A DNA stretch of 64,000 nucleotides from Ruminiclostridium josui JCM 17888 (GTDB lineage Bacteria > Bacillota > Clostridia > Acetivibrionales > DSM-1351): assembly GCF_000526495.1 (NCBI RefSeq), contig NZ_JAGE01000001.1, positions 3,294,001-3,358,000 on the forward strand, read 5' to 3'. Both the position numbers and the translations under genes were made by a program. Of the stretch, positions 2,877 to 42,803 are shown in pieces (position 1 is the first letter of the stretch; every line of letters starts with the position of its first letter). The notes under the pieces are model-generated. The model saw only the letters and a list, made by a program, of their open reading frames with translations, searched no databases and was not told the DNA's origin.

Positions 2877-2896
2877 AATTCTTCTGTACCTATATC
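2877..2896 (-). other. cotJC: Third piece of cotJC and left attachment site of the 35-kb ICE
   Basis: Read on the minus strand this encodes DIGTEEL, the conserved continuation of CotJC (usual family sequence LTDIGTEE followed by LAHLE). The 9-bp core ACCTATATC (2888-2896, plus strand) is repeated exactly at 37945-37953, where the preceding cotJC piece ends. Beyond 2877 the similarity to CotJC stops at once (next codons Val, Pro, stop). This is therefore the ICE left junction plus only about 11 bp of host gene before another unexplained break. Confidence 0.7.
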
Positions 2897-2929
2897 CGTA
2901 CCGAAAGGACGATTTGAATTAATGACTTG

Positions 2930-2957
2930 AAACCCTTGATATCAAGGGTTTTTATTA
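2930..2957 (+). terminator. Palindrome with T-run just inside the ICE left end
   Basis: A perfect 22-bp palindrome (AAACCCTTGAT and its complement, 2930-2951) is followed by TTTATT. It lies between the attachment core and the first ICE gene. That position suits insulation of the element from outside transcription. It could alternatively be an arm-type protein binding site. Confidence 0.45.
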
Positions 2958-2996
2958 TGTGTGAATTATATCATAAATATGAATGGAGGTAAATAA

Positions 2997-3773
2997 ATGG
3001 AAAGAACCCAAGAAAAATTATTATATGGGGCAATATCAGGTAAGCTAATTTATTATCTGAGGACTATGGGCTATGGAGCTAAATCAGTTAATACCAGCGG
3101 AAAGGAAGGGAATTGGGATACTGAAAAAATATGTGTAACCAAAGACGGCAGAGATTTGTGTGATATCAATTGTATTGAAGGTACGATTACATATCATAAT
3201 GCTTCTGAGCAGGAGGAAATCAATTTAATCCGAGACCTTATTAATGAGCTTGAGGAACAGGAATTGATTTTTAACAGAGCTGAGCCTATGAAAGTTGAAG
3301 GGCTCAAACATTATAGGGTTCTAGCTGAATACAATAACGTTATTCTTGCTGCTTGTGAAACAGAAGGTATAAATTCTTCATTGCATAAGGTTAATAGCTA
3401 TCAATATGTTACATGGGAAAGAGATAAAGGAGGCTCACAAATGGGTGTTCACTCCGGAATTTATTTTAGTGATAACTATACTGGAGCAAAAGAGAATTTT
3501 GTTATCAGATCCGGATTTATGAGAAAAAGTAAGCTGTTGAGTGAGACTGAAATGATGGCTATATATAGCGGAATTGTAAAGCTCGAAGATTTTGATATTA
3601 ACAATGATGACAGTTACAAAATATTTAGACAAATAAAAGAAAAAATACAAGACATAATTCCTGATATTGAAGCAAGGATTTACAGGAATGATCCTAGGTT
3701 TATTACTAACTTAGTTAATGAATCAGAAGCTATTGAGGAAGATATTGAGCTATATGATCAAGAAATTCGGTAA
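2997..3773 (+). CDS. ICE-associated hypothetical protein (DUF3849-like region)
   Basis: This 258-aa protein is preceded by GGAGGT and is directly followed by the methylase gene (stop TAA, then the next frame). Residues about 100-170 contain VILAACETEGINSS, then WERDKGGSQMGVHSG and YTGAKENFVIRSG. This resembles a block I recall from conjugative-element proteins that neighbour LtrC-like methylase/helicases. No catalytic motif is evident. Function unknown; context suggests a role in ICE DNA processing or antirestriction. Confidence 0.5.
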   Translation: MERTQEKLLYGAISGKLIYYLRTMGYGAKSVNTSGKEGNWDTEKICVTKDGRDLCDINCIEGTITYHNASEQEEINLIRDLINELEEQELIFNRAEPMKVEGLKHYRVLAEYNNVILAACETEGINSSLHKVNSYQYVTWERDKGGSQMGVHSGIYFSDNYTGAKENFVIRSGFMRKSKLLSETEMMAIYSGIVKLEDFDINNDDSYKIFRQIKEKIQDIIPDIEARIYRNDPRFITNLVNESEAIEEDIELYDQEIR

Positions 3774-3836
3774 GTGAAAAGTCATTTCTTATCTTACGAA
3801 ATAAAATATATTAATACAGAAAGGATTTTTAGGAAA

Positions 3837-6290
3837 ATGCTTAGTTTCAAAACAATGTTTAATGAAACTATGAAGCAGATTACGAGGAGTGACAGCGAGT
3901 GGAAAAAGTTTCTAGGTTTCTCAGGACAGTTATTCAAGTATGGTTTTTACGAAACTGTCCTTATTTACAATCAAAGACCTGATGCAACTATTGTTGCAGA
4001 TATGGATACATGGAATAAAAGAGTAGGAAGATGGATAAATCGTGGTAGCAGGGCAATTAAGGTTTATGATGCTAATAGTAAAGGTGTACGGTATTTATTT
4101 GATATATCAGATACACACGGTAACTATACAAGTAGAATTAAAAGCTACACAATAAAAACAGATGCAGCACAAAGTTTCGTTATGGAATATTTAGGTGTAG
4201 AAAAAGAAAGGGATTTTGAGGGCTTTGTAGAAAGTTTATGTACTGAGTTTTTAGACAAACATGAGTACCCGGGAGAATACTTTGATTACTTTGTACAACA
4301 AAGTGTTGTATATTCTGTGTTCAGCAGGCTTAAGTTTGATACTGAAGGAAAATTTCATTTTGAGGATATTTTGAAACAGATTGACATAGGCCAAGCAACT
4401 GAGTATGCTTCAATAATATGTGAAATAAGCAAACAGGTTTTAAGACTTTTGGAAAAGCCGGCACGAATTTATGAAAATAAGGAGATAAATAGAAATGAGA
4501 GCCAAATACATAGAAGGAATTGGATTGGTGGAGTATCCGGAGACACCGGAAGAAATGCAGGAAGCTATGAGCAAAGAAGCAAGGGAAATAAAGAAACAGG
4601 AACCGATATCCAAAACAGATTATCGGGAGGGAGCAGACGGGATATTATATCCTATGATATCACCGGACGAGAATCGGGAGTTGGACAAAATACCGGAAGG
4701 GATATTCGCAGCGGAGGCAGTGAAATACCTAGTGCAGAACTACCCCAAAAGAGTACAAGAATTGAAAATACAGGGTACGTGGTTCAGTACAATTTATCAG
4801 ATAGACAATCAGGCATTGGAAATGATGGACAAGGTTCAACAAGAACTGAAGAAGAAACACCCGATACCTCAGACGGAGGATTTTACCGAGTTGGCCAGAT
4901 ACAACAACTGGATCAGGGAAACGGCTCAGGAAATAGTAATGAAGGAAGTAGTCAGAGTTCCGAGATAAAGGATAATAAAAGTGACGAAGTTAAAGAGTCA
5001 TCAGAAAATGGTGGCTCTATTATTTTGCCTCAAAAACAGCAAACGCTTTTGGAATTTATTAAAGATGAAGAATCTGAGCGGTCTAAGAAAGATGTAGAAA
5101 GTGAAAACATAACTTTTAATATTGCTTCAAATAAAACTAGAATAAATTATACTTATAATCCTTCAGATGATATTGGTGCTGGTGGTCAAAAGACAAAATA
5201 TAAAGCCAATGTCGAAGCAATTAAGCTGCTCAAGGATATCGAAAAGGAAAACCGTCTTGCAACAAGCCAAGAACAAAGTATTCTTATTCGATACACTGGA
5301 TGGGGTGGATTATCACAGGTATTTAATGCTGAAACTAAAGGCTGGGAAAGGGAGTACCAGGAATTAAAAGAACTTCTTACTGATGAGGAATATATCAGTG
5401 CAAGAGCATCTACGCCCAATGCCCATTATACAGATTCACAAGTAATCAAAGCTATATACAAAGCCTTAAACAGGTTTGGCTTTAAAGGAGGTAACATCCT
5501 TGAACCCTCTATGGGTACTGGATTATTTTATTCTTTAATTCCTGAAGATGTTTCTAATAAGTCCAAGTTATATGGCGTAGAACTGGACAGCATATCGGGT
5601 AGAATATCAAAGCAGCTTTACCAAAAGGCTGATATAAGGATTCAGGGGTTTGAAGATGCAGACTATCCGGATAATTTCTTTGATATTGCAGTAGGAAATG
5701 TACCTTTTGGAGACTATAAGCTCCATGATAAAAGATATGACAAGCTCAACCTTAACATACACGATTACTTCTTTGCAAAGACATTGGACAAGGTTCGTCC
5801 CGGTGGAATTATAGCATATATAACCAGCAAAGGAACGCTGGATAAGGCAAACGGTTCTTTCAGAAGATACATTGCGGAACGTGCCGAACTGATAGGAGCA
5901 ATAAGGCTTCCAAACAATGCCTTCAGGCAGATAGCAAATACAGATGTAACAACAGATATCATTTTTCTTCAGAAGCGTGAGCACGCAATTATTTTAGATG
6001 AAGAACCGGCTTGGACAGGACTGGGACAGACTGATGACGGAGTACCTGTAAATCAGTATTATCTGGATAATCCTGATATGCTCCTTGGGAAAATGATTTT
6101 TGATAAAAGAATGTTTGGAAGTGACGGAAAATATACAAGCCTTGTTGCAGAGGACAATTTCAATTTAGTAGAAGTACTTGACAGAGTAGTTGAAAAACTA
6201 CATGCAAGGATAGATACAAATGATACCGGAAAAGAAAATCAGGAAGAAGAATATATCCCTGCAGAGCCGGAAGTCAAAAACTATACATAA
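3837..6290 (+). pseudogene. ICE ArdC-like/N6-adenine methylase protein, truncated (helicase half deleted)
   Basis: This is the N-terminal half of the very large ICE methylase-helicase protein. Residues about 10-130 are ArdC-like (FYETVLIYNQRPDATIVADM). Residues about 220-400 form a Gly/Ser/Arg/Gln-rich linker. The methylase domain follows, with motif I EPSMGTG (about 555) and a catalytic NPPY-like NVPFG (about 620). Intact relatives continue into a SNF2-type helicase. Here the frame stops at 6290 and the true C-terminus resumes a few bases later in another frame, so an internal deletion removed the helicase. ATG 3837 is preferred; a GTG at 3774 is possible. The linker overlaps an alternative-frame gene at 4495-4968. 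Confidence 0.8.
4495..4968 (+). CDS. tnpV: TnpV-family protein encoded wholly inside the methylase gene (+1 frame)
   Basis: This is a 157-aa open frame with its own AAGGAG at 4479-4484, 10 nt before ATG. It matches the TnpV pattern: DGILYP, an AVKYL..NYPKRVQELK segment, the IDNQALEMM block and a C-terminal NNWIRETAQEIVMKEVV. TnpV proteins are transposon- and ICE-encoded and of unknown function. The reading frame of the host gene over the same bases is low-complexity and probably disordered, while this frame looks globular. That asymmetry supports a real overprinted gene rather than a chance ORF. Confidence 0.75.
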   Translation: MRAKYIEGIGLVEYPETPEEMQEAMSKEAREIKKQEPISKTDYREGADGILYPMISPDENRELDKIPEGIFAAEAVKYLVQNYPKRVQELKIQGTWFSTIYQIDNQALEMMDKVQQELKKKHPIPQTEDFTELARYNNWIRETAQEIVMKEVVRVPR

Positions 6291-6292
6291 GT

Positions 6293-6712
6293 GTCGGAAC
6301 CTACAAAGGTTTTGATTTAAAGCTTGAATACAATGAGTTTCTGAGCGGGTTTAATCTACATATTACAGGCAAATATCAGTACACAATTGAGCTTGGTGGG
6401 AATCCCATCGGGAATATCACACGTATAGACAATGCACTGGAAGGAATGGAACCGACATTGCAAAGATGTTGTAATCAGTTGGAACAACTTAACCAGGACT
6501 TTGAAACAGCAAAGGCAGAATATGAAAAACCGTGGCGTTACGAGGAAGAATACAAGACAAAATTAGCACGTCAGGCAGAACTAAACATTGAGCTTGATTT
6601 AAACAAACAGGATGAAGTTTTGGGAGATGAGGCATCAATTGAAGACAAAGAGGTAGCAATAAATGCTTCGTATGTAGTCTCTGATGAAGAAGAGCAGGAA
6701 ATGGAGATGTAA
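6293..6712 (+). pseudogene. C-terminal remnant of the ICE helicase protein
   Basis: Translation in the frame of 6293 gives VGTYKGFDLKLEYNEF, then TIELGGNPIGNITRIDNALE and a coiled-coil tail ending at 6712. This is the characteristic C-terminus of ICE SNF2-type helicases. It follows the truncated methylase by only a few bases, out of frame. A deletion of the whole motor domain, with a frame change at about 6275-6292, explains the arrangement. An ATG at 6446 could start an 88-aa fragment, but it lacks a convincing ribosome binding site. Confidence 0.75.
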
Positions 6713-7038
6713 ATAATTTAGGAAAGGGTGAGGAAAATTTATGGATATTTGAGTATTAGGATGTCAAAATCAAAGGACTGAAAAGCGATGTTTGTCGAAC
6801 ATAAGACCTCTTTTGCAAGGATTTCTCATATCAAATGGTTACGTTACGTAGCCAAAAAAGAAATTAAAATAAGAATAAGCAATTGGCAGATATTGTAAGT
6901 CAACTTCGTATAATCTGGAGTATTTGCTAAATATCAATATACTGCCAGTTGATAGTTAAGAAATTAACTGGTAACATAACTTAGTAAATATTTACAATTT
7001 TTCATTAAAAAACTATATTTCACCTTAGGAGGACTTAT
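6713..7038. other. Non-coding stretch with a long-range dyad
   Basis: No gene was recognised. CAATTGGCAG (6880-6889) pairs with CTGCCAGTTG (6942-6951) across a 52-nt loop. The ribosome binding site TTAGGAGG for the next gene lies at the right end. Nothing else is supported. Confidence 0.3.
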
Positions 7039-7671
7039 ATGAAAAAAAATCGTTTTTTAGCAATTTTATTAGTTTTTACAGTTTTATTATCGTTTACCTC
7101 AGCTGTTTCCGCTAAATCACTTCAAAGTGATACAACCTCGCAACAAAAGTACATATTAACACAAAAAGAAATAAGCAAATTTAATCAGTATGTCTCATTA
7201 AAAAATGGTCAGTTCTCTATTGATAATATTGCAAAAAAAGAATTATCAGATAGTGAGTATGATAAATTAGAATTTAATATTAACAAAAATAATCAAATAA
7301 TTAATAAAATAAATAAAGATTCTATTATGATAGTTGACCCCAAAAAACAAGAAGCGAATGCAGAATCAAACAATACATTTGCTGCAGCAACAACTTATCA
7401 TGAAGGAGTAACAAAATGTGATATGTATTGGTGGGGTGCAAGAATATACTTATCCAAAACAGTGGTAAATAATTTAGGAAATGGTATTGGGTTTGGAATG
7501 ATATGGATACCAGAAGCAGTAGTTACCAAAATTATAGCTTCTGTAGGATTTGTATTGGCATTATGCCCAGGGGGAGTAATTATTGACTGCAACTTATGGC
7601 TTGCAGGTTGGAATTTTATATCACCAATCGATGTTCCACTTAATGCTTGCACATTTTACGGATGGCAGTAA
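7039..7671 (+). CDS. Secreted protein with Gly-rich hydrophobic C-terminal region
   Basis: This 210-aa protein has a clear signal peptide (residues 1-25, cleavage after AVSA). A Lys/Asn-rich propeptide-like segment runs to about residue 118. The C-terminal about 90 residues are aromatic and hydrophobic: YWWGARIYLSKTVVNN, then GFVLALCPGG and an NLWLAGWNF tract with three Cys. The layout recalls secreted antimicrobial-type proteins in which a hydrophobic C-terminal module is the active part. That is inference; no enzyme motif is seen. It has its own AGGAGG and a terminator. A two-helix membrane protein follows at 8015 and could be a partner. Confidence 0.55.
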   Translation: MKKNRFLAILLVFTVLLSFTSAVSAKSLQSDTTSQQKYILTQKEISKFNQYVSLKNGQFSIDNIAKKELSDSEYDKLEFNINKNNQIINKINKDSIMIVDPKKQEANAESNNTFAAATTYHEGVTKCDMYWWGARIYLSKTVVNNLGNGIGFGMIWIPEAVVTKIIASVGFVLALCPGGVIIDCNLWLAGWNFISPIDVPLNACTFYGWQ

Positions 7672-7694
7672 AACAAATATACACCGTGTATAAT

Positions 7695-7746
7695 AATTGT
7701 AAATCTTGCTTAATATTATTGAGCAGGATTTGCAATTTTTTTCTCT
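7695..7746 (+). terminator. Rho-independent terminator
   Basis: The AATTGTAAATCTTGCT stem pairs, with G-U pairs, with AGCAGGATTTGCAATT, and a run of T follows. It lies just after the secreted-protein gene. From here to 8014 only AT-rich sequence without genes is seen. Confidence 0.85.
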
Positions 7747-8014
7747 TACAATAAAAATCCTATGGATCAATTTTCTAGTGGAAAATTAAAAAATAAAATA
7801 TCATAATGGGATAACTTTGTATACTTGAAAAACAAGTATGAAATCTTCGGTTTTGTTGAGAAGGATATCTTACTTGACTATACATATATTTTTATTCTAT
7901 GATTTGAATACCTAGTATTCTTATTATAGTAGCTATTGATTTTAGTGTTCTTTTTTTAAAATTATTAAATATATTAACTAGGTATTTACTGTTAATAGAA
8001 AGGAGAAATCACTT

Positions 8015-8188
8015 ATGGAAAATAAAAAAAAGCTTCTTATTATTAGAATTATTCTATCAGTATTATTAATTATGACACTTGTTTCAAAAAGGGCACATTT
8101 AATCTCAGATAATGTATATTCAATAATAATAATTCTTATAGCAGTTGTTATAATATTTGGACCAAGCAAATTTATTAAAGAAAAATAG
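8015..8188 (+). CDS. Small two-helix membrane protein
   Basis: This 57-aa ORF has a strong GAAAGGAG at 7998-8005, about 9 nt before ATG. The product is KKKLLIIRIILSVLLIMTL, a short polar turn, then YSIIIILIAVVIIFGP and a basic tail: two transmembrane segments with positive ends. No family is recognised. It lies downstream of a secreted hydrophobic protein, which is the usual position of a small immunity protein, but that role is only a guess. Confidence 0.55.
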   Translation: MENKKKLLIIRIILSVLLIMTLVSKRAHLISDNVYSIIIILIAVVIIFGPSKFIKEK

Positions 8189-8255
8189 TATCCGTCGATG
8201 AGAAATCACCGTAAGGAGTACGGTTTTCTATAGAAATTAAATCAATACATAAAGA

Positions 8256-8283
8256 AACAGGCTTATTGCCTGTTATTTTTTTA
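8256..8283 (+). terminator. Rho-independent terminator
   Basis: The AACAGGC/GCCTGTT stem (8256-8262 and 8268-8274) has a 5-nt loop and an A followed by eight T. It terminates the small membrane-protein transcript and lies 40 bp before the parA remnant. Confidence 0.85.
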
Positions 8284-8323
8284 TAAAAAATTATTCCAGA
8301 ATAATGAGAGGAGAAAAACAAAA

Positions 8324-8413
8324 ATGGGAAAAGTAATTGCAATTGCAAATCAAAAAGGCGGTGTAGGTAAAACCACAACCGCTGTAAACATTTGTAACAG
8401 CAATAGACAATAA
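8324..8413 (+). pseudogene. ParA/Soj N-terminal fragment
   Basis: It begins [20 protein letters not shown], the deviant Walker A of ParA-type partition ATPases, behind GAGAGGAG. After about 23 codons the similarity ends and the frame stops at 8413. ParA proteins are normally about 250 aa, so more than 90 percent is missing. The break coincides with the start of the ankyrin-like fragment, so one deletion fused parA to the interior of that gene. Confidence 0.85.
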
Positions 8414-9026
8414 CATTGATTCAGCATTGAGTATATACAAATATGCAGATGCAAACCTACATGGAGAAGCACAGTTTGATACCATGAGAGGGTTTCTCAG
8501 TCATGCATTAACCACCTTACCGGATGCAGATGCAGAAAAATTTATTAAGTCAAGTTCAAAAGCCTTAAATGATACAGTAATATTCAAAGAATTAATACGA
8601 GCCGGAAAATATGGACTACTCAATTCAGGTCTTATGAAATGCCGAAACATAGATGAACATGCACCGGCACTTTTCTATTATGCAGCACAGCATAAGGATG
8701 CTGATGCAATGCATACACTTATTAGCCGAGGAGCTGATGTTAATTCAAACAATGGTGAAGCCCTCTATACATGCTATGAAACCAACAAGCTTGAGGCAGC
8801 AAAAGTCCTAATAAACTATGGGGCAGATATCAATTACCTTACAAACTATATCAGTCAAATAAAAGATGTAAGACCAAATATTCATTTCTTACAAGAGCTA
8901 TGTAAACACAGTGGAATAACTGAAAATGAACTAGACAATAAATTGCAGTCAGTACAGGAGACACCAGAAGATGAAGTCGTTGGTGAATATGGTGTGTATG
9001 ATGGATTTGATAGTAGTTGGGAGTGA
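8400..9026 (+). pseudogene. Ankyrin-like ICE protein, N-terminally truncated
   Basis: In the frame of 8400 the translation runs [18 protein letters not shown] through an ankyrin-like block (DADAMHTLISRGADVNSNNG, then LEAAKVLINYGADINYL) to a stop at 9026, about 208 aa. No start codon with a ribosome binding site fits; its 5' part was removed by the deletion that also truncated parA. It ends 8 bp before the toprim gene, so it may have been part of that operon. Function unknown. Confidence 0.6.
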
Positions 9027-9034
9027 TACGATAG

Positions 9035-10057
9035 ATGAAACGATTTACAGATGATCAAATTTATCAAGCGAATCACGTCAGCATATACGAATTAGCAAAG
9101 CAGCTTGGATATAATCCGGAAAAACGTGGTTCAAACTATCATATCAAGAATCATGGAGGCCTGTATATCGACGATACCAAAAACTCATTCTATTGCTGGG
9201 CTGCTGAACGTGGAGGTGGCCCAATACAGTTCTTAATGTTTATTGAAAATATGAGTTGGGTAGATTCTATGAAATACCTTGTAGGTGACGGAGAAATCCA
9301 ACAAACTCAAAAAGCGAGCTTGAAACAGCATAAACCTGTAGAAAAAAAGCAGGTAGAATTCAAACTTCCGGATAAAGCCAGTCCGTACAAGAGATTGTTT
9401 GCATACCTTATAAAAACCCGCGGGCTGGATAAGGATATAGTAACCGATCTTGTTTACAAGAAAAAAATATATGAAAGCCTACCTCATCACAATATTGTAT
9501 TTGTAGGTTATGATGAAAATGGTGAAGCAAGGCAGGCCTTTCAGCGTGGAACAGTAACCGGCTTATCATTCAAAGGAATTGTTCCGGGAAGTAATATGAA
9601 CTATTGCTTTGAAATGGAAGGTAAAGGAGACAGCCTCACAGTATACGAAGCTGCAATAGATGCAATAAGTCATGCAAGTATATATAAAAGTCTTGGTATG
9701 GAATGGAAAAAGGAACACAGGATAGCACTAGGCTGTCTATCTGATAATGCATTGGCTTGTTACTTAAAGCGACATCCGGAAATAAAAAATATAACCTTTG
9801 CATTGGATAATGATGATGAGGCAAAGTTCTCTAACGGAAAACCTGCACCAAACTGGGGACAAGAAGCAGCTAATAAGTATGCAGAGAAATATGCAAAACT
9901 AGGTTACAACACAACTATAGAAAAACCTCTTGCGAAGGATTGGAATGAGGATCTGCTGAATATACGACTTGTACAGCAGGACTTAGCGAACAGACATGAA
10001 GAAGACCGTTTGCAGCTTCTTATGGGAAGCAATGAAGAACTTGAGGCAGCTTTATAA
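9035..10057 (+). CDS. Toprim/DUF3991 primase-like ICE protein
   Basis: The protein is 340 aa. Residues 1-85 resemble a CHC2-type primase N-domain without zinc cysteines (GLYIDDTKNSFYCWAAERGG). A DUF3991-like middle follows at about 115-180. A toprim-like domain follows, with the acidic Glu in LTVYEAAIDAIS (about 208) and FALDNDDEA (about 255). Such proteins accompany ICE relaxases and probably prime or process DNA after transfer. It looks intact. Confidence 0.8.
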   Translation: MKRFTDDQIYQANHVSIYELAKQLGYNPEKRGSNYHIKNHGGLYIDDTKNSFYCWAAERGGGPIQFLMFIENMSWVDSMKYLVGDGEIQQTQKASLKQHKPVEKKQVEFKLPDKASPYKRLFAYLIKTRGLDKDIVTDLVYKKKIYESLPHHNIVFVGYDENGEARQAFQRGTVTGLSFKGIVPGSNMNYCFEMEGKGDSLTVYEAAIDAISHASIYKSLGMEWKKEHRIALGCLSDNALACYLKRHPEIKNITFALDNDDEAKFSNGKPAPNWGQEAANKYAEKYAKLGYNTTIEKPLAKDWNEDLLNIRLVQQDLANRHEEDRLQLLMGSNEELEAAL

Positions 10058-10160
10058 ACAAGATGGAAGGCTGTTGGATAATGAGATTTCCGGCAGCCTT
10101 CTTAAAATATTGAGGTGAACATGAAAATTACTCAAAAATATTTCTTTTTTCAGTATCCTT

Positions 10161-10345
10161 TTTCAGAGTTTTGCTCTGAAAAAACAGGGGGCATGGGGGA
10201 GAATCCCCCGATTTCCGTACAGAAAACCGCACCTTTTTGGGGCGGGTATGTACGGCAGGAATAGTCGGGTGACACACCCGACGGTATACAGCTTGCCAAC
10301 AGAGTTGGCAACGGGTGACGATGTAATATATGGGTGGCAAAGGGG
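10161..10345. other. Candidate origin of transfer (oriT)
   Basis: This GC-richer island lies in an AT-rich gene-free gap (10058-10523) directly upstream of the RHH mobilisation gene. It is packed with inverted repeats: TTTCAGAG/CTCTGAAA (10161-10181), GGGGGA/TCCCCC (10195-10209), CCGTAC/GTACGG (10215-10255), GTCGGGT/ACCCGAC (10264-10282) and TTGCCAA/TTGGCAA (10293-10311). Stacked inverted repeats next to a MobC-like gene are the usual appearance of an oriT. The nick site was not identified. Confidence 0.6.
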
Positions 10346-10523
10346 TGGCAGAAAAGGTGTAATGTTGATGTAGTAAGGGTTTTAGAGGTTGGAGTAATAT
10401 GTGGTTTAGAATAGGAATATATAAAGTTTGAAATTAACAAAAAAATTAAATAAATAAATAAGAGAAGGTAACTGTGTTGCTGTGGCATAATGCTACGACT
10501 TTTGTTTTGTCAGGAGGTGCAAA

Positions 10524-10982: not shown

Positions 10983-11096
10983 GGCCATTATTTTTAAGGG
11001 AACAGGAGAGTGAGACTGTGGAAACAGAAAACAAAAAAAATTCACTGGGAGTTGGGTATGTGACAACTGTAGGAGAATATATGAAAAAAATCCGAT

Positions 11097-11201
11097 GGGT
11101 GCAAGGTGATAGTAGTTGATCCAGAGGTTGAATATACTGCGCTGATGAAAGAAGGAGTGACTGAACATCAGTGTAAGAGAATTAATCCGCTTGAGATATA
11201 G
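11097..11201 (+). pseudogene. VirB4/TraE-type conjugative ATPase remnant
   Basis: The translation GCKVIVVDPEVEYTALMKEG followed by VTEHQCKRINPLEI and a stop resembles the VIVIDPEREY strand of VirB4-type ATPases. Only 34 codons remain and there is no Walker A or B. The rest of the 10983-11287 gap has no recognisable gene. It indicates that a mating-pore module once followed mobC and was deleted. Confidence 0.5.
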
Positions 11202-11287
11202 TAAACTTACAATTACAATAAATTTACATATATGCAAGTATATTGTATAATTATTTGTGGTTCTATTGACATTGAGGGGGGTGTTGC

Positions 11288-34290: not shown

Positions 34291-34313
34291 ATATCTTCCT
34301 CGCTTATTCACGT

Positions 34314-34358: not shown

Positions 34359-34371
34359 TAACTTAATAATT

Positions 34372-35352: not shown

Positions 35353-35627
35353 ATAAAAATTTTCTCCTTGCTTGATTGTAAATTAAATTTCTCAACTAGT
35401 TAAGTTATTAACATGATACCATAATTGTAAATAACTGTAAATAAAATTGACTATATTTATTCAATTATGTTGTATTACCTTTATAGTGATAGTAGATTTT
35501 ATAGTAAAGTGGTTTTGATCATACTATATTTTTAAAATGGAAGCTTACTTGCCAGTGATAACAAGATGCTACACAAGAAACTCACTTCTTAACTTACAAA
35601 AATAAAATGATTTTCTATATAGATACC

Positions 35628-35665
35628 CTTAGCGTACGATTTTTGCAAAAATCTGCCTATACCCC
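35628..35665 (-). repeat. Tn3 terminal inverted repeat, right
   Basis: This 38-bp complement of 29138-29175 has one difference (GGGGTATAGG versus GGGGTATGGG). The orientation is that of a transposon outer end. Confidence 0.95.
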
Positions 35666-36089
35666 ATTAATTGTATCGGTGTCTCAGGCGTCCGTCAACA
35701 GCAAAGGAAATAAATAGTTAAATGTGAGATGGGTTTGCTTGGACATTTGACTATAGATGAGGAGTGGAATATGTACGCCAATTGTACAGCAGTGAAATAA
35801 ATTTTGTGTTCTATGTATAAAGAGAACTGCATTCGGCGGTTCACATGGATAATGGCAATATGCCAGGCACAAATAGCTGCTGATAATACCGGAGCGGAGC
35901 CAAGAGGTTAAACCCTGCGAGGAAATTATAATTAAAGTTTGAATTGGCGAAAAAGATAATTTAATTTATGTGTTTTCACAATAGACCATGCACTGGAATG
36001 CAGTTTCCATATGCCAGTGCGTGGATGTGCTGTGAAAATGAATTAACCATTTATTTACTTTTGAATAGAATGTATTGGGGGTTGATAGT
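35666..36089. other. Gene-free stretch with a large cruciform-like dyad
   Basis: No gene was recognised in 424 bp. From 35973 to 36038 there is a long dyad: TTTTCACA (35973-35980), CCATGCACTGG (35986-35996), then CCAGTGCGTGG (36014-36024) and TGTGAAAA (36031-36038). It precedes the small ORF and integrase and could be an operator or a folded leader. Confidence 0.45.
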
Positions 36090-36242
36090 ATGACAATTAA
36101 AAATAACAGGATTGAACTTACTTCAGAAGAAAGTAACATATTTACCCGCCAGTTTAAAATAGGAATAATCAAGCAGCTGTATAAAGAGAAGCTGCTGACT
36201 GGTGAGCAATATGATCAGGTGATTAAAGCAATTAATAGCTAG
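36090..36242 (+). CDS. Small SHOCT-like protein upstream of the integrase
   Basis: This 50-aa ORF contains RQFKIGIIKQLYKEKLLTGE followed by QYDQVIKAI, the short helix-turn pattern of SHOCT domains. It ends 68 bp before the integrase start. Small ORFs in the same place occur before the other two large serine recombinases in this window (40994 and 59496), so it may be a recombination directionality or accessory factor. It is untested and not recognisable as a known excisionase. Confidence 0.55.
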   Translation: MTIKNNRIELTSEESNIFTRQFKIGIIKQLYKEKLLTGEQYDQVIKAINS

Positions 36243-36310
36243 TGATTCCTACAAACGGCCTGCTTGTAATTAAAAGTAGGCTCTTATTTTATATAATCAG
36301 AGGTAAATGT

Positions 36311-37915
36311 ATGAAAGTAAAAGTTGGTGCTTACTGCAGAGTTTCAACGGAAAAGGATGATCAGGTAAATTCACTTCAGAGCCAAAAAAAATATTTTGAA
36401 GAATATATAAGGAATAGACCTGACTGGGAATTTGTTGACATTTATGCTGATGAGGGAATTAGTGGGACCCAGGCCGAGAACAGAATGGAATTTCAGAGGA
36501 TGATCTCTGATGCTAAATACAAAAGGTTGGATTTGATATTAACAAAAGAGATTTCAAGATTTGCAAGGAATACAAAGATTAGTATTGATTATACACGTAT
36601 GCTTAAAGAGCTTGGAGTAGGTGTCATCTTTATTAATGATAATATTAATACTCTTGACGGAGATGGTGAATTAAGGCTTACTATCATGTCAGCTATTGCC
36701 CAGGATGAAAGTAGAAAAACATCCGAAAGGGTAAAGTGGGGACAAAAAAGAAGGATGGAGCAGGGTGTTGTTTTTGGAAGAGAGCTATTTGGATACAACT
36801 TATATAAAGGCGTTTTAACTGTTAATGAGGAAGAAGCTGAAATAGTAAGATTAATTTTTCACAAGTATACCATCGAAGGAAAAGGTACTCATGTAATTGC
36901 TAGAGAGCTATATGAAGACAATATACAATCAAAAAGATATAAAAACAGGTGGTCAAATACCGTAATTTTGAGACTTCTGAAAAATGAAAAATATGTTGGA
37001 GATCTGGCCCAAAAAAAGACCATAACTCCAAATTACTTAAATCATAAAAAGAAATACAACAGGGGAGAAGAAGAGATTATTTATATAAAAAACCATCATA
37101 CACCTATCATATCAAGGGAATTATGGGATGCAACACAAGAACAGATTAGTCAACGATCAGCATCAAAGGAGCAAAAAAGCAAATACAGCAATAAATATTG
37201 GTGCTCGGGAAAGCTAATTTGTGGCGAATGTGGAAGTAAATTTGTGGGGAGAAGCAAAAAACTAAAAAACGGGGAAGTTTACAAGGCTTGGAGATGTAAT
37301 CAGGCTAAAAGTTATGGCAGTCTCAAGATTGATGTAAATGGAAATCAGGTTGGTTGCAACAATAAGAGCATTAATCACATAGTGCTGAGTAAAATAGTAA
37401 AAACAGTTTTGTACTCAATAAATTCAAATAAAGAAAAAATAATATCCGAGTTGGTATCGGAAATTAAGAAATTGAACAAGTTGACTGATATAAAGAGTAC
37501 GGATTCATTTACAAGAAAAATAGAAGACCTGAACCGTAAAAAGCAGGAAGTAATTAACCTAATGATTGAAGGAAGCATATCTAAGGATGATATGGTTTTA
37601 ATGAATAAAAGGTATGACTTTGAGATAAATAAAGCTAAAACGGAGATTAAAAATATTGAAGAAATCAATCTTATAAATAGCAGGAATGCAGATAAGCTAC
37701 AGCTATATATAGACAGGATAAATTCTCTGGTTAACCGGATTGAAGAAAAAGATTCAGAGGAAGTATTTAAGCTGACAGTAAAAAAGGTTATCTTATATAA
37801 AAATAACATTATGGAATTATACTTAACATGTATGCCTGAGCCAATAAAACTAAAGTATAAAAGCAAAGGTAAAAATGGTAACTATAGTGTTGAATACAGC
37901 TTTATAGACAATTGA
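36311..37915 (+). CDS. Large serine recombinase, integrase of the 35-kb ICE
   Basis: This 534-aa protein starts at ATG 36311 (AGAGGTAA upstream; the in-frame extension back to 36242 has no site). The resolvase domain has nucleophile Ser in AYCRVSTEKDD (about 11), DEGISGT and the LTKEISRFARN arginines (about 68-78). A Recombinase domain follows with EAEIVRLIFHKYTIEGKG (about 175). The zinc beta-ribbon is LICGECGSKF..WRC (about 305-330). A C-terminal coiled coil runs about 385-480. The stop codon is 29 bp from the right attachment core, so this enzyme is the likely mover of the 2888-37944 element. Confidence 0.9.
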   Translation: MKVKVGAYCRVSTEKDDQVNSLQSQKKYFEEYIRNRPDWEFVDIYADEGISGTQAENRMEFQRMISDAKYKRLDLILTKEISRFARNTKISIDYTRMLKELGVGVIFINDNINTLDGDGELRLTIMSAIAQDESRKTSERVKWGQKRRMEQGVVFGRELFGYNLYKGVLTVNEEEAEIVRLIFHKYTIEGKGTHVIARELYEDNIQSKRYKNRWSNTVILRLLKNEKYVGDLAQKKTITPNYLNHKKKYNRGEEEIIYIKNHHTPIISRELWDATQEQISQRSASKEQKSKYSNKYWCSGKLICGECGSKFVGRSKKLKNGEVYKAWRCNQAKSYGSLKIDVNGNQVGCNNKSINHIVLSKIVKTVLYSINSNKEKIISELVSEIKKLNKLTDIKSTDSFTRKIEDLNRKKQEVINLMIEGSISKDDMVLMNKRYDFEINKAKTEIKNIEEINLINSRNADKLQLYIDRINSLVNRIEEKDSEEVFKLTVKKVILYKNNIMELYLTCMPEPIKLKYKSKGKNGNYSVEYSFIDN

Positions 37916-37944
37916 TTTAAGATGTACCCTACTGATACAGATAC

Positions 37945-38043
37945 ACCTATATCTGTGAGGGTACCCTTTGCTTGCTCATAGGGCATTGTATATCTCTGAT
38001 TCAGGTAACGTAGAGATGCAGCAAGTTCTCCATCAGGCCCGCC
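37945..38043 (-). CDS. cotJC: cotJC middle fragment (codons 31-62) between two elements
   Basis: The minus-strand translation GGPDGELAASLRYLNQRYTM followed by PYEQAKGTLTDIG is the conserved CotJC (manganese-catalase-like spore coat protein) sequence. It begins at core CCGCC (38039-38043), shared with 42712-42716, and ends at core ACCTATATC (37945-37953), shared with 2888-2896. With the N-terminal piece it forms exactly 62 in-frame codons. The longer open frame through it (37882-38109) is a chance fusion with element sequence. Confidence 0.85.
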
Positions 38044-38290
38044 GGATTTCAAGTTTTTACAAATTCGCCCTTTAAACACAATCATGCAAAAATGAAGAAA
38101 TTTTAACAATATATTACTTTAATTTATGATATAATTTAAGTTAATATAGTAAAAATATGTTAAAAAACAGATTTAAATTATCATTTGAACATTAGGGCGA
38201 AAATTAAAAAAGAAAGGAGGATATAGAAATTATAATTTGCCCGAGTGGAATCGAATGAGTAAAAAAAATATAAAAGGAGACTTAAGTTAA

Positions 38291-40876
38291 ATGGCGAAAG
38301 TAACAAAAATGAGAAAGGTTGGAGCATTGGTTGTTGGATCTGCATTGCTTTTTACAACTATGATTCCTGCAAGCATCTCTTCAGTAGCTGCAAGCGAAGC
38401 AATAAATGTAAGTATAGACACAAATGCTGAGAGAGCTGCAATAAGCCCTTATATTTATGGAGGTAACTGGGAATTCAATAATGCAAAGTTGACTTCAAAA
38501 AGATTAGGTGGTAACAGAACAACAGGTTACAACTGGGAAAACAATTACTCCAACGCAGGTAGTGACTGGCAGCATTCTAGCGACACTTATTTGCTGACAA
38601 GCAACAATATCCCTGAAGAAAAATGGGATGAACCGGGCGTAGTTATAACAGATTTCCAAGACAAAAATATTGCAGCAGGCGAAGAGTATTCATTAGTAAC
38701 TTTGCAGGCAGCTGGATATGTATCTGCAGATGCGAATGGAACTGTAACAGAAGAAGAAGTAGCACCGTCAGAAAGATGGAAAGAGGTAAAATTCAAAAAA
38801 GATGGACCTTTATCTCTTACTCCGGATACAACTGACAACTACGTATACATGGATGAGTTGGTAAACTTCCTTGTTAATAAATATGGAACTGCCTCTACAC
38901 CAACAGGTATAAAAGGATATGCTATTGACAATGAGCCGGCTCTATGGCCAAGTACACACCCAAGAATTCATCCTGAACAGCCAACCTGTGCAGAGATTGT
39001 AGACAAGAATATAAACCTTGCAAAAGCAGTAAAGGGCGTGGACCCAAGTGCAGAAACATTTGGTCTTGTAGCATATGGATTTGCTGAATATAACGAATTT
39101 CAGTCTGCACCAGATTGGGCAGGTTTAAAGGGCGATTACACATGGTTCCTTGATTATTATCTGGACAGCATGAAAAAGGCTTCAACTGAAGCAGGAACAC
39201 GTTTGATAGATGTTCTTGATTTGCACTGGTATCCTGAAGCAAAGGGTGGAGGACAAAGAATATGCTTTGGAGAAGACCCAACAAATATATTATGTAACAA
39301 AGCACGTCTACAGGCAGCTAGAACATTATGGGATCCTACATATACAGAAGACAGCTGGATAGCACAGTGGTGCAGCTTTGGACTTCCTTTGATTCCAAAG
39401 GTACAGGAATCCATAGATAAATACAACTCTGGAACAAAGCTTGCTTTCACAGAATATTCATATGGTGCTGATAACCACATAACTGGTGGTATAGCTGAAG
39501 CCGACGTATTGGGTGTATTCGGTAAATACGGTGTTTATCTTGCAACTGTTTGGGGTGGCGGAAGCTACACAGCAGCAGGTATAAACATGTATACAAACTA
39601 CGACGGTAACGGTTCAAAATATGGAGACATAAAGGTAAAAGCAGAAACTTCTGATATAGAAAATACTTCTGTATATGCTTCAGTTGATTCAAAAGACGAT
39701 TCAAAATTACATGTTATACTAATTAACAAAAATTATGATAGTCCAATGACAGTAAACTTTGATATAAACAGCGACAAGCAGTATACATCAGGAAGAGTAT
39801 GGTCATTTGACAGAAGTAGTGCAAATATAACAGAAAAAGCTCCTATAGATGCTATAAACGCTAACAAATTAACTTACACAATACCTGCATTAACCGTATG
39901 CCACATAGTGCTTGATTCAAATACTCCTTCTTTACTGTACGGTGATGCAAATGACGATGGAACTGTTGATGCTATAGACTATGCATTATTTAAGAAATTT
40001 TTATTGAACGCTGAATCAAATTATGATAAAAAATATGATTTAAATCTTGATAACTCTGTTGACGCAGTAGATTTCGGAATATTAAGACAATACTTGCTTG
40101 GAAAAATATCTAGCTTACCACTCAAAAATATAACAGAAAACAAACCACCGGTGGCTGCCTTTACAGTATCACCAAAAGCAGCATTTACTGGAGATAACAT
40201 AAATTTTGATGCAACTGCTTCATCTGACCCTGACGGAAATGTTCATATTTATTCTTGGGATTTCGGTGACGGAACAGAAGGTACTGGCGCTAAAATTATC
40301 CACAAGTACAAAGCTCCAGGAACATATACAATAAAATTGACAGTTTTTGATGAACAAGGCTTGTCAAATTCAGTAACGGATACAGTTGCTATAGAATCAG
40401 CTACAGGTGATAATGCTGATATTAATTTTGAAGATGGAGAATTAAACGGATTTACAACAAATGAACCTACAACAACAAAATTATCAGTTACCTCTGAAAA
40501 GGCTTTCCAAGGAAATAAGTCACTTAAATGGGAAGCTGTAGGTTCAAAAGACGGTAAAGTAGACGCTGAAATAAACAGCAGCGTACATGTTCTAAAACCA
40601 GGAGAATCAATGACATTCAGAATTTGGATTCCTGAAGGAGCTCCAATAAAATCAATTCAGCCATACTATATGCCACATAATCCTGATTGGACAGCAGTAG
40701 AATGGAATTCTTCATGGAAGAGCTACGACATGATAAAGAAGGGTGACTGGAATGAATTTACAGTAACACTTCCTCTTACTACAGATACTACCTTAACCCA
40801 GGCCCAGTTTGGTATACAGGTTGAAACATCTGGAGAAGGCAACTTTACAATGTATGTAGATTCAATAGATTGGTAA
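38291..40876 (+). CDS. Cellulosomal GH44 endoglucanase/xyloglucanase with dockerin, PKD and CBM44-like modules
   Basis: The protein is 861 aa. A signal peptide covers about 1-35. The GH44 catalytic region (about 36-540) has the acid/base Glu in YAIDNEPALW (about 216) and the nucleophile Glu in LAFTEYSYGAD (about 388). A type I dockerin (about 549-612) has the two duplicated calcium-binding segments GDANDDGTVDAIDYALFKKF and DLNLDNSVDAVDFGILRQYL. A PKD domain (about 617-700, SWDFGDGTEGTG) and a C-terminal carbohydrate-binding domain follow. The order GH44-dockerin-PKD-CBM44 equals the C-terminal part of C. thermocellum CelJ. The enzyme docks onto a scaffoldin outside the cell. It has AAAGGAG and its own terminator. 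Confidence 0.9.
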   Translation: MAKVTKMRKVGALVVGSALLFTTMIPASISSVAASEAINVSIDTNAERAAISPYIYGGNWEFNNAKLTSKRLGGNRTTGYNWENNYSNAGSDWQHSSDTYLLTSNNIPEEKWDEPGVVITDFQDKNIAAGEEYSLVTLQAAGYVSADANGTVTEEEVAPSERWKEVKFKKDGPLSLTPDTTDNYVYMDELVNFLVNKYGTASTPTGIKGYAIDNEPALWPSTHPRIHPEQPTCAEIVDKNINLAKAVKGVDPSAETFGLVAYGFAEYNEFQSAPDWAGLKGDYTWFLDYYLDSMKKASTEAGTRLIDVLDLHWYPEAKGGGQRICFGEDPTNILCNKARLQAARTLWDPTYTEDSWIAQWCSFGLPLIPKVQESIDKYNSGTKLAFTEYSYGADNHITGGIAEADVLGVFGKYGVYLATVWGGGSYTAAGINMYTNYDGNGSKYGDIKVKAETSDIENTSVYASVDSKDDSKLHVILINKNYDSPMTVNFDINSDKQYTSGRVWSFDRSSANITEKAPIDAINANKLTYTIPALTVCHIVLDSNTPSLLYGDANDDGTVDAIDYALFKKFLLNAESNYDKKYDLNLDNSVDAVDFGILRQYLLGKISSLPLKNITENKPPVAAFTVSPKAAFTGDNINFDATASSDPDGNVHIYSWDFGDGTEGTGAKIIHKYKAPGTYTIKLTVFDEQGLSNSVTDTVAIESATGDNADINFEDGELNGFTTNEPTTTKLSVTSEKAFQGNKSLKWEAVGSKDGKVDAEINSSVHVLKPGESMTFRIWIPEGAPIKSIQPYYMPHNPDWTAVEWNSSWKSYDMIKKGDWNEFTVTLPLTTDTTLTQAQFGIQVETSGEGNFTMYVDSIDW

Positions 40877-40890
40877 TATAGTAATAAATT

Positions 40891-40934
40891 AACAAATGCT
40901 CCAAAGGGTTATTACCCTTGGGAGCATTTGTTTT
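40891..40934 (+). terminator. Rho-independent terminator of the GH44 gene
   Basis: The AACAAATGCTCC/GGAGCATTTGTT stem extends through AAGGGT/ACCCTT and ends in TTTT. Confidence 0.9.
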
Positions 40935-40993
40935 ACTAAGAAGCAAATCACCAAAAGTATTTCTCCCCCATATAATAGATTTGGGGTGGGTTT

Positions 40994-41122
40994 ATGACTA
41001 AAAATGAAGTGATTGATGAAGTTATTGAAATTCTTATAAAAAGAGCCTTAGAAGAAAAAACGCTAAATTCAAGGGGTGAAAAAGAAAATGGAGTATATTC
41101 CTCCTTTGGTTATTGCAAATAA
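40994..41122 (+). CDS. Small ORF overlapping the recombinase start
   Basis: This 42-aa ORF begins MTKNEVIDEVIEILIKRALE after GGGGTGGGTTT and overlaps the recombinase start by 35 nt in another frame. It is charged and helical. It occupies the same place as the small ORFs before the other two serine recombinases and may be an accessory factor. It is too short to classify. Confidence 0.45.
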   Translation: MTKNEVIDEVIEILIKRALEEKTLNSRGEKENGVYSSFGYCK

Positions 41123-42695
41123 GTTCGAAGAGTATAATGATATCAGAAATTCTATAGGAGAAGTTGGCTTGGAGGTAGGAGGATACATACGAATATCTAC
41201 AAAAAAGGACAGTCAGATATCTTCAATTGAAAATCAAAAAAAATATATATCAGAATGGGCAAGTGTTAATGGTTATAAAATAATTGATTTTTACATAGAC
41301 ATGAAGACCGGTGCATACAGTTACCTAAGACAGGAAATGGTGAGGATGAAAAACGATATTTCATCAGGAAAAATAAAAGGCATTGTATCAAAGGAAATAT
41401 CCAGAACCTCCCGTGATATACTTGACATAATTGAACTTAAAAGGAGCCTTGCAAATCAAGGAGCTTTTTTTATTTCTATAAAAGAAGGCTATGACAGCAG
41501 GACTGACGATGATGAGTTTCTTCTAGTAATACATGCAGGACTTGCACAAAAAGAGAGAAAAGTAACTGGTTCAAGAGTTAAAATAACTCAGATGATAAAG
41601 GCACGGGAAGGAAAAACCAATGTACCAACGCCTGCTTTCGGATACATGTTGTCTCCTGACGGTCAGCACCTTGTAATAAATCCTGAAACAGCAGAAGTGT
41701 ACAAAATGATAGTGGATAAATTTCTTGAAGGCTGGGGAAGGCTTAAAATATGCAAATATCTTAACTCACAAGGAATTAGGACAAACAGGGGAAATGTCAA
41801 TTGGAGTACCAATTCCATATATGCCATTCTGACAAACCCTGTATACCTAGGTATAACCATATACAATGTAACTTTGACAGTACGTGATGATACAGGTAAG
41901 GCAAAACGAATGGTAAGACCACGTGAACAATGGATAGTACGGGAAAATACCCACCAACCGCTTATTACAAAAGAAAAATTCGATAGAATTCAGCAGTTGA
42001 TTCAGGATAAAAAGCAAAATGAAGTAAAAGAATGGAGCTGCACGAAAAAATACCTTTTATCAGGACTGGTATACTGCAAGTCATGCGGCAGTAAATTATA
42101 TGGAGGAAGGTTCCCAAAAAAGGAGGCAAAGTTAAAAAATAAGTCAGAAAGAACAAGAGAGGATTACTATTACTATTACTTTGACAGAAAAACCTCCGGT
42201 GTTTGCAAGAACAGAAAGGCAAATTATCACATGGATATTGTTGAAAGAAAGGTAATTGAAAAGGTAAAAGATATTCTTTTATCCTATGACAAACTGGAGG
42301 AAATAATTAATAGTAAGAAATTCCTTTACGATACAAGATTTAATAAAGAGAAAATGGATTACCAACGACTTAAAGACAAGCTTCAAGCTGTTGAAAACGC
42401 AATGAGAAGAGAACAAATAGCTTACGAAGAAGAAGTAATTACCATAGAGGAATATAAAACACGGTTAGATGAGCTTCGCCTTCAGAAACTTTCTTTATTA
42501 AATAAACTTGAAATAATAAAATCCATACCTGCCGAAACAAGTTATTTGGAGCTAGTAAAAAAGATAAAAGAAATAATAGTAAATTTACATAATGAAGATT
42601 CTGAATTTCAGTATGAAATAATACGTAAATTAATAAGCAAAATATATATTAATGATAATTATTCTCTTGAGTTTGAATATACTTTTAATTTATAA
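41088..42695 (+). CDS. Large serine recombinase of the GH44 element
   Basis: This 535-aa protein is read from ATG 41088 (AAGGGG 11 nt upstream); GTG 41076 is the alternative. The resolvase domain has nucleophile Ser in GGYIRISTKKDSQ (about 35) and SKEISRTSRDILD (about 100). A Recombinase domain follows (AEVYKMIVDKFLEGWG, about 205-220). The zinc ribbon is LVYCKSCGSKLYGG (about 325) with a later Cys, and a C-terminal coiled coil is present. It is only distantly similar to the ICE recombinase. The stop is 17 bp before the attachment core. Confidence 0.9.
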   Translation: MEYIPPLVIANKFEEYNDIRNSIGEVGLEVGGYIRISTKKDSQISSIENQKKYISEWASVNGYKIIDFYIDMKTGAYSYLRQEMVRMKNDISSGKIKGIVSKEISRTSRDILDIIELKRSLANQGAFFISIKEGYDSRTDDDEFLLVIHAGLAQKERKVTGSRVKITQMIKAREGKTNVPTPAFGYMLSPDGQHLVINPETAEVYKMIVDKFLEGWGRLKICKYLNSQGIRTNRGNVNWSTNSIYAILTNPVYLGITIYNVTLTVRDDTGKAKRMVRPREQWIVRENTHQPLITKEKFDRIQQLIQDKKQNEVKEWSCTKKYLLSGLVYCKSCGSKLYGGRFPKKEAKLKNKSERTREDYYYYYFDRKTSGVCKNRKANYHMDIVERKVIEKVKDILLSYDKLEEIINSKKFLYDTRFNKEKMDYQRLKDKLQAVENAMRREQIAYEEEVITIEEYKTRLDELRLQKLSLLNKLEIIKSIPAETSYLELVKKIKEIIVNLHNEDSEFQYEIIRKLISKIYINDNYSLEFEYTFNL

Positions 42696-42711
42696 AAACT
42701 AGAAATCCGGG

Positions 42712-42803
42712 CCGCCAAGCTGAGTTATTATAGCTTTAGCAAGAGCCGCATTTGGTCTGGTTATTTTTACCGGGTACTCCAATTTTTTTTCATAAATCCA
42801 CAT
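42712..42803 (-). CDS. cotJC: cotJC N-terminal fragment (codons 1-30)
   Basis: Minus strand from ATG 42803 (GGGAGGTG upstream, overlapping the cotJB end) encodes MWIYEKKLEYPVKITRPNAA followed by LAKAIITQLGG, the canonical CotJC start. After the CCGCC core the frame runs into element sequence and stops within three codons. Without excision only a useless 33-residue peptide is made. Confidence 0.9.

Follow-up and report, generated by a model that had tools for sequence, protein, structure and literature searches.

In the literature covered here, programmed DNA rearrangements in sporulation are known from a few genes (sigK, spsM, spoVFB, gerE, and yabG), each carrying one element. The nif and hup elements of heterocyst-forming cyanobacteria are likewise excised in a terminally differentiated cell, and some genes carry several of them, although these genes, organisms, and the developmental setting are unrelated to those considered below. 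Nitrogen fixation cases are also mentioned in PMC8987985. In Bacillus subtilis and Clostridioides difficile, the skin element of sigK is a serine recombinase element in a mother-cell gene that is rebuilt by excision (PMC5025042), and the elements in cotJC of Ruminiclostridium josui JCM 17888, analyzed here in a stretch of 64,000 nucleotides (the window), are likewise serine recombinase elements in a mother-cell gene. They differ from skin in the interrupted gene, in the recombinase family, and in their number of up to three per gene. The directionality factor of C. difficile skin is the 72-aa CD1234, controlled by sigma-E and SpoIIID (PMC5025042), whereas the candidate small protein of the cotJC system has its gene immediately upstream of the gene of recombinase A, which it overlaps, with sigma-K-like control suggested. 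The element gin in gerE of Bacillus cereus (PMC5595907) resembles element A of cotJC as a non-phage element with a serine recombinase in a sporulation gene, but comprises 28.6 kb and three recombinase genes, whereas element A has one, from a recombinase family found across several classes. SPbeta, an active prophage that splits the spore-envelope gene spsM and is excised in sporulation, can be compared to the 41-kb prophage E3, known from sequence; SPbeta is a single element, whereas the cotJC prophage is stacked on a second one (PMC4191935). Two more intervening elements, vfbin and yin, reside in other sporulation genes (spoVFB and yabG, respectively) and are both called prophage-like (PMC10747680). 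In C. difficile, a prophage has a cotJC homolog downstream of its attR, which is not called split (PMC11222575). A literature search, the scope of which excluded most subscription journals and preprints, found no description of an interrupted cotJC.

In R. josui, three elements, distributed over two sites, interrupt cotJC, and all of them encode a large serine recombinase. The insertions are located inside the coding sequence of this sporulation gene, with a large serine recombinase gene near one element end. The first piece (42705..42803, minus strand) comprises codons 1-30 (42803-42714) and the site A core (codons 30-33; match to 42705), the second (37945..38043, minus strand) codons 30-62. 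A preliminary description of the window had placed codons 1-30 and 31-62 in this order on the minus strand, which agrees with our analysis, as do the distances between the pieces (~4.66 and 35.06 kb) and the shared cores, GGCGG (in its longer form GGCGGSCCKGAT) at site A and GATATAGGT at the second site. Removal of the first insert regains ITQLGGPDGEL, as had been proposed. The alleged codons 63-66 at 2877-2887, in contrast, are not a third piece of the gene: reading past GATATAGGT at 2896-2888 yields DIGTEELVP and then a stop, and this sequence is the junction (2871..2907, minus strand) between element B and the end of a further element, the prophage. The true remainder (codons 63-201) is located outside the window, ~38.3 kb to the left of its first base (G000:C1:3255734-3255312, minus strand), and adjoins a further recombinase. 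The second join thus does not read TLTDIGTEEL, as formerly claimed, but TLTDIG followed directly by AEELAHMEI. In silico, precise removal between the short cores common to both ends restores the frame of cotJC, and the rejoined gene has 201 codons free of stops. The serine recombinase elements in cotJC beside a split sigK are confirmed, but there are three of them and not two independent ones, since two are stacked at the codon 62/63 site and the far boundary lies outside the window.

The genes named cotJA (43168..43380, minus strand; 70 aa) and cotJB (42810..43178, minus strand; ATG start, with a longer 133-aa TTG reading frame also listed) presumably are those genes, judging by position. The catalase activity of CotJC is said not to be needed for coat assembly (PMC3533761). 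A search for a second intact cotJC revealed one further Mn-catalase gene (C1:2650779, 236 aa), which was ruled out as a second copy by its diverged, MFKHDK-type sequence; copies of this type in relatives share 34% (G003) and 38% (G008, partial) identity with CotJC.

Element A (38044..42704, 4661 bp) consists of a recombinase operon and a cellulosomal enzyme with GH44, dockerin, and PKD domains as cargo (38291..40876, plus strand), which occurs at the same position with 88-91% identity in four relatives (G002, G005, G006, and G007). Recombinase A (41076..42695, plus strand) is a large serine recombinase of 539 aa with Resolvase, Recombinase, and Zn_ribbon_recom domains. A reading frame of 42 aa (40994..41122, plus strand), identified by a search with a loose pattern, is a candidate directionality factor and has no Pfam match. 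The ends of element A form a near-palindromic attP (15/18 positions; maximum of 13 in 300 shuffles). In the same inverted-repeat test, element B (11/18; shuffles up to 12), the prophage (13; up to 15), and element C, the third interruption found in some relatives (14; up to 14), did not exceed the shuffles. Viral relatives of recombinase A were limited to three loci with 23% identity over part of the length, and a phage nature of element A was thus rejected.

Element B (2888..37944, 35 kb) is ICE-like and contains both MobL/Relaxase matches (20281-21495) and a T4SS coupling protein (25917-28310). Its recombinase (36242..37915, plus strand) starts at Met24 (window position 36311) in most relatives, and its P arm directly adjoins the cotJC tail in G002, G005, G006, and G007. 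The 41-kb, myovirus-like prophage E3, of which the window contains the right end (1..2887), extends to the left to about G000:C1:3255735 and encodes its recombinase at G000:C1:3255760-3257364 (minus strand, outside the window). A terminase, portal, tail sheath, tape measure, and an integrase at the att site identify it as a temperate myovirus. Element B and the prophage are mobile elements; a second attB within cotJC serves both of them, and they probably leave it by an active-lysogeny-like excision.

The neighbor of the cotJ genes, sigK, is also split, by 16.4 kb. Its 5′ part is in a reading frame at 44605..45045 (plus strand; TIGR02846 match 44635-44973) and its 3′ part at 61340..61717 (plus strand; TIGR02846 match 61340-61696), and the sigK element encodes its large serine recombinase at 59692..61350 (plus strand). 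In the recombinase tree the latter was placed far outside recombinase A, as a very remote outgroup. The cotJC elements therefore do not belong to the skin family proper: they are located in cotJC, and recombinase A is far from the sigK type. The neighboring sigK element itself is in sigK.

Putative promoters were matched against the sigma-K consensus. Similar motifs precede the cotJ operon (43424..43451, minus strand; AC-N17-CATATTCTA) and the recombinase A operon (40950..40977, plus strand; AC-N17-CATATAATA). Of the 11 Ruminiclostridium genomes, 10 have a sigma-K-like motif, placed by eye and without shuffle control, directly before cotJA (absent in G009), and 10 have one before recombinase A (absent in G003; mean of 0.25 and maximum of 3 in 300 shuffles). 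Genome-wide the pattern was not enriched (76 matches versus 95 in the reversed control). Outside the genus, no clear motif was seen before cotJA at 10 loci of the order and none was recognized before recombinase A; within 200 bp of 8 B and 7 C recombinases, no sigma-E/K motif was detected.

Among the 11 Ruminiclostridium genomes analyzed, cotJC is broken after residue 32/33 in all (39 in one row), and an empty site A was found in none. Such a consistent break is more than chance. The site A split occurs with the same recombinase family in Acetivibrio relatives, in Pelotomaculum/Desulfotomaculum, and in heliobacteria. At the order level, cotJC is split in 21 of 47 genome sequences, and an A-type recombinase is present in 17/17 genomes split at site A (G028 left out). 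A scan led by the recombinase recovered cotJC pieces at 25 of 29 loci; 11 of the 29 were already known, and pieces were found at 14 of the 18 new ones. All nine non-own matches in a phylum sample stem from genomes in which a piece of cotJC is cut off at site A, eight of them being on the same contig as this piece, and the recombinase tree broadly follows taxonomy. The same cut in distantly related spore-formers suggests that the pieces are rejoined in sporulating cells. In G331, the pieces lie 484 kb apart on opposite strands and thus cannot be rejoined by simple excision. G222 encodes complete Mn-catalase-family genes alongside a split piece.

Substitution rates were compared for five genomes (10 pairs). 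The mean dS was 0.59 for recombinase A, 0.44 for GH44, and 0.45 for the cotJC tail, with dN/dS values of 0.11 for recombinase A and 0.054 for the tail, which is under purifying selection. With a dS like that of cotJC, element A has co-diverged with its host, and it is a vertically kept intervening element. Since the tail has a dN/dS of ~0.05 next to a co-diverging element A, the gene seems to be used, which would require excision. The dS of recombinase B is about half that of cotJC, indicating that element B is younger or was exchanged. The earlier suggestion that both inserts are sporulation-intervening elements is thus supported by comparison for A (host co-divergence, purifying selection, no close viral recombinase, promoters) and less so for the ICE-like B; comparative support for the prophage in this role is also less than for A.

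On these data, cotJC is probably a split gene whose function is kept through developmentally timed DNA excision, and its elements are best read, from their sequences, as a new family of sporulation-intervening elements with deep conservation. Removal of the sigK element in the mother cell would allow sigma-K to be made, which, given the matching promoters, would transcribe both the cotJ operon and the operon of the small reading frame and recombinase A. The small protein may assist recombinase A as directionality factor, recombination of the two GGCGGSCCKGAT cores would remove element A, and the B recombinase and prophage integrase would remove their own elements at GATATAGGT. Together, these deletions would rejoin codons 1-30, 31-62, and 63-201, and the elements would stay in the forespore chromosome. 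This reading is weakened by the promoter pattern (not enriched genome-wide, missing in G003 and G009, and not seen before the B and C recombinases), the low dS of recombinase B, the inverted-repeat test that favors attP for element A alone, the arrangement in G331, the complete Mn-catalase-family genes of G222, and the statement on the catalase activity of CotJC. We lean slightly toward an even broader scenario, in which the splitting of cotJC is ancient and stable across several classes of spore-formers and is sustained by a recombinase of its own, passed on vertically, together with a small directionality protein encoded alongside; the repair of cotJC in Ruminiclostridium would be the second step of a cascade (sigK excision, sigma-K, then cotJ operon expression and element A excision), and some species would need three excisions to join four pieces, one of them of 24 bp.

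It is unlikely that cotJC is just an attachment-site hot spot, a dispensable coat gene that is dead once split and is hit by frequent and recent insertions. Such a situation would fit the low dS of recombinase B, the Mn-catalase paralog elsewhere in the genome, and the use of site B by integrases of two types that have numerous relatives in viruses, with 13 of 80 E3-type and 9 of 22 B-type viral loci flanked by cotJC sequence (one of the nine weak). It is at odds, however, with the co-divergence of element A and host, the same cargo in five genomes, the open cotJC tail and its low dN/dS, and the lack of close relatives of recombinase A on viral contigs. Slightly less probable still is a real but non-developmental excision, occurring at random in few cells or upon phage induction and sufficient as such; element B and the prophage do resemble ordinary mobile elements, but recombinase A and cotJ have sigma-K-like promoters in common, and site A is empty in none of the 11 genomes of the genus. 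That the pieces, which remain open, function as genes in their own right or become joined at the RNA or protein level is very improbable, because pieces of 30 and 8 codons hardly represent stand-alone genes and the boundaries coincide with shared cores, a nearby serine recombinase, and, for element A, palindromic arms.

If developmentally timed excision of the cotJC elements holds true, it would show that a gene can stay split as a stable, heritable feature and not through a passing infection, as the same codon and recombinase family are involved from Ruminiclostridium to heliobacteria, with strong selection where measured. It would also imply a two-step DNA cascade from sigK to cotJC, provide recombinases whose natural target sites are strict, and make cotJC an example of several intervening sequences in one bacterial gene, two of them separated by a 24-bp piece. 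The phage origin retained for E3 is doubtful for element C, whose recombinase has viral relatives at seven loci with at most 29% identity, save one 34-residue match at 56%. The C-type recombinase had one match in a phylum sample of 398 genomes (G335); the flanks retrieved with it contained no piece of cotJC, and PF05067 matched the G335 genome only weakly. The third interruption itself (site C) was found in four genomes, where a 24-bp piece encoding KG(T/V)LTDIG lies between sites C and B, and rejoined cotJC was free of stops in 13 of 13 genes.

The cotJC gene is split by three inserts (element A, element B and a 41-kb prophage), each of which carries a large serine recombinase. In the window (G000:C1:3294001-3358000), the genes cotJA and cotJB lie with cotJC codons 1-30 at 43380-42705 (-), and codons 30-62 lie at 38043-37945 (-), which confirms the separate minus-strand pieces (codons 1-30 and 31-62) reported in the preliminary description. 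The first insert, element A (4661 bp), encodes the large serine recombinase A (41076-42695) and a GH44-dockerin-PKD enzyme (38291-40876). The sequence GGCGGSCCKGAT is common to both of its ends, which when combined give a near-palindromic attP in which 15 of 18 positions pair, against a mean of 9.3 and a maximum of 13 in 300 shuffles.

The second insert begins past codon 62 at GATATAGGT. A final cotJC piece had initially been assigned to its far end at 2877-2887, but translation onward from there reads DIGTEELVP followed by a stop, and when the complete genome was searched with PF05067, the remaining cotJC turned up 38 kb to the left of the window, at C1:3255363-3255743 (-), adjacent to another serine recombinase (3255760-3257364, -). 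The arm CAAATCGTC(A/T)TTTCGGT, which directly adjoins the cotJC tail in the relatives G002, G005, G006, and G007, recurs with one change at the 2871-2907 junction in the window, which places the end of element B at this junction. Between this junction and the cotJC tail lie 41 kb that encode terminase, portal, tail sheath and tape measure proteins along with a VanY-family protein, which mark a myovirus-like prophage stacked on element B. By eye, the other side of the junction forms an inverted repeat (CATTGATAACATTGTGGTAC / GTACCATAATGTTATCAATG) with the sequence that precedes the cotJC tail; an automatic 18-base test of the prophage ends gave 13 matches (maximum in shuffles 15) and thus did not support it on its own, nor did this test support inverted repeats for element B (11; maximum 12) or the C insert found in relatives (14; maximum 14). 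In silico removal of element B and the prophage yields ...TLTDIGAEELAHMEI... within a 201-codon frame.

Element B encodes a T4SS coupling protein, a relaxase-like ORF, Tn3 and IS110 transposases, and a SIR2-STAND NTPase protein (17735-20188) that is perhaps an anti-phage defence gene. The C-terminal half of a relaxase-like ORF occurs in two near-identical versions (20281-21495 and 25267-25893) on either side of about 4 kb that hold a DUF4179 protein and, judged by eye, a sigma-factor-like ORF; this arrangement looks like a duplication or insertion. The Tn3-family transposase lies with a tyrosine recombinase (the latter by eye) at 29212-33071. Adjoining the prophage integrase, ORFs resembling AgrB and an Agr-type membrane kinase (by eye; G000:C1:3257436-3258993, L005) form a possible quorum system in the phage.

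In all 11 genomes of the genus compared, cotJC breaks off after residue 32/33, with 39 as the break in one row. Its tail is unsplit from residue 28-30 in four of them (G001, G004, G009, G010), split again in six (G000, G002, G003, G005, G006, G007), and was not found in G008. G003, G005, G006, and G007 carry a third recombinase type at a third site, C (codon 55/56), and in these genomes the 24-bp piece between sites C and B (the latter at codon 62/63) encodes KGVLTDIG or KGTLTDIG with mostly synonymous differences. At the order level, sequence-level evidence showed a split gene in 21 of 47 genomes (G000-G011, G014-G017, G024, G026, G027, G029, G030; G028 by rows only), in some with the pieces on separate contigs, and two of the 47 had no cotJC match. 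Five further order genomes that were read contain an unbroken CotJC with 64-67% identity to the joined window protein across 190-199 residues. Insert A ranges from 3.2 to 75.7 kb in the 14 genomes with both ends on one contig. In G014-G017 (Acetivibrio/Herbivorax group; L068-L072) a conserved protein of 340-380 aa that contains MGNKKDINLLPEE replaces GH44 in element A, and in G003 a MFKHDK-type Mn-catalase paralogue lies inside the cotJC-splitting B element (L043:7482-8192).

The recombinase of element A (A-type) was present in all 17 order genomes examined with a split at site A (codon 30-33). A scan of named genomes with 11 A-type proteins retrieved 29 loci, 25 of them with a cotJC fragment broken at site A; 11 loci were already known from the earlier comparison, and 14 of the 18 new ones had such a fragment. 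The four loci without a fragment are L095, L101, and L110, on contigs of 3.2-4.1 kb, and L108, a partial match. Hosts include Pelotomaculum, Desulfotomaculum/Desulfoscipio MAGs, Thermacetogenium, Heliobacterium, and Heliorestis, and two MAGs labeled Armatimonadetes and Deltaproteobacteria are perhaps misbinned. In a phylum sample, whose species probably overlap in part with those of the named-genome scan, 10 of 398 genomes (own genome included) had an A-type recombinase at E <= 1e-90; all nine others contain a cotJC piece cut at site A, in eight of them (all but G432) on the contig of the recombinase. G222 yielded the 3' piece alone, plus two complete Mn-catalase-family genes. The Heliobacterium-like G352 (L239), whose A and C inserts (3.8 kb and 4.9 kb, respectively) fall inside 10 kb, is the smallest doubly split version among the loci examined and suits experiments. 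The A-type tree broadly tracks taxonomy; its deep nodes are weak and its outgroup is distant.

Viral contigs contained nothing close to recombinase A (3 loci, 23%) and C-type matches of at most 29% (7 loci; one 34-residue match excepted), whereas 22 B-type and 115 prophage-type relatives (80 kept) were found. cotJC flanks nine of the 22 B-type (one weak) and 13 of the 80 prophage-type loci, counts from viral contigs that may have lost host flanks. These results make site B a recurrent attachment site for phages, and element A looks like a resident.

Mean dS over the 10 pairs of G000, G002, G005, G006, and G007 was 0.59 for recombinase A, 0.44 for its GH44 neighbor, 0.45 for the cotJC tail, and 0.24 for recombinase B; recombinase C had 0.25 (three pairs; tail 0.49, 0.39, 0.15 for the same pairs). 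The GH44 cargo is kept in the same order across these five genomes, and element A seems to predate their split, as measured against genes of the locus and not an independent host-gene clock. Throughout this period dN/dS stayed at 0.054 for the cotJC tail, which is separated from its own promoter and start codon, and at 0.11 for recombinase A. Of 14 genomes with an entered first piece, 13 were joined in silico (G026 had no second-piece entry), and all 13 genes lacked stops over 186-201 codons, some ending at the end of the alignment. Since cotJC is split throughout yet under selection, it would have to be rejoined, and joining at the DNA level is favored because an 8-codon piece can hardly act otherwise. 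We infer such rejoining strongly for element A and more weakly for element B and the prophage, which may be ordinary passengers. Excision is a proposal drawn from genome comparison, and some observations speak against it. In the Heliorestis-like G331 (L240, L241), which has an A-type recombinase next to cotJC pieces, these pieces are separated by 484 kb and lie on opposite strands, so that either the gene is broken there or it would take an inversion to join them. One study reports that the catalase activity of CotJC does not matter for assembly of the coat (PMC3533761).

A small ORF (42 aa, MTKNEVIDEVIEILIKRALEE...) directly upstream of recombinase A, overlapping its gene in the window, is a candidate directionality factor. 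Of 31 loci examined, 30 (all but L101) matched a loose pattern for this ORF, ambiguously in the heliobacteria, and the ORF had no Pfam match; the factor of skinCd is a 72-aa protein (PMC5025042). Except in G003, the genus genomes (10 of 11), which are related and not independent, have the motif AC-N15..18-CATANNN[AT] <=60 bp upstream of the small ORF (300 shuffles: mean 0.25, maximum 3/11). The same architecture precedes cotJA in all of them but G009 (10 of 11), a placement made by eye among a few other matches in 1400 bp and without shuffles. The strict motif occurs three times in 147 kb around the locus, two of these being the cotJA and small-ORF sites, and is not enriched genome-wide (76 vs. 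95 for the reversed pattern). The consensus derives from B. subtilis, and because the -10 elements of sigma-E and sigma-K are similar, "mother-cell sigma" is a safer label than "sigma-K." At 10 order loci outside the genus, the motif was absent before the small ORF and had no clear case before cotJA (the G026 match at -671 has no obvious start after it).

The cotJC elements would work like skin, SPbeta/spsM, gin/gerE, vfbin, and yin but differ from them in gene, recombinase family, depth of conservation, and number and stacking of interruptions. Literature searches, as far as the retrieved texts extend, gave no description of an interrupted cotJC, and a heliobacterial genome paper, in its passage on this protein, has CotJC encoded in the genomes it lists with no remark on interruption (PMC9147875). 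The neighboring sigK element (44980-61340, 16.4 kb) encodes an asparagine synthase, a YcaO protein, a nitroreductase-family protein and a prismane/CO dehydrogenase, and ABC transporters were recognized there by eye; together they may form a modified-peptide cluster within sigK.
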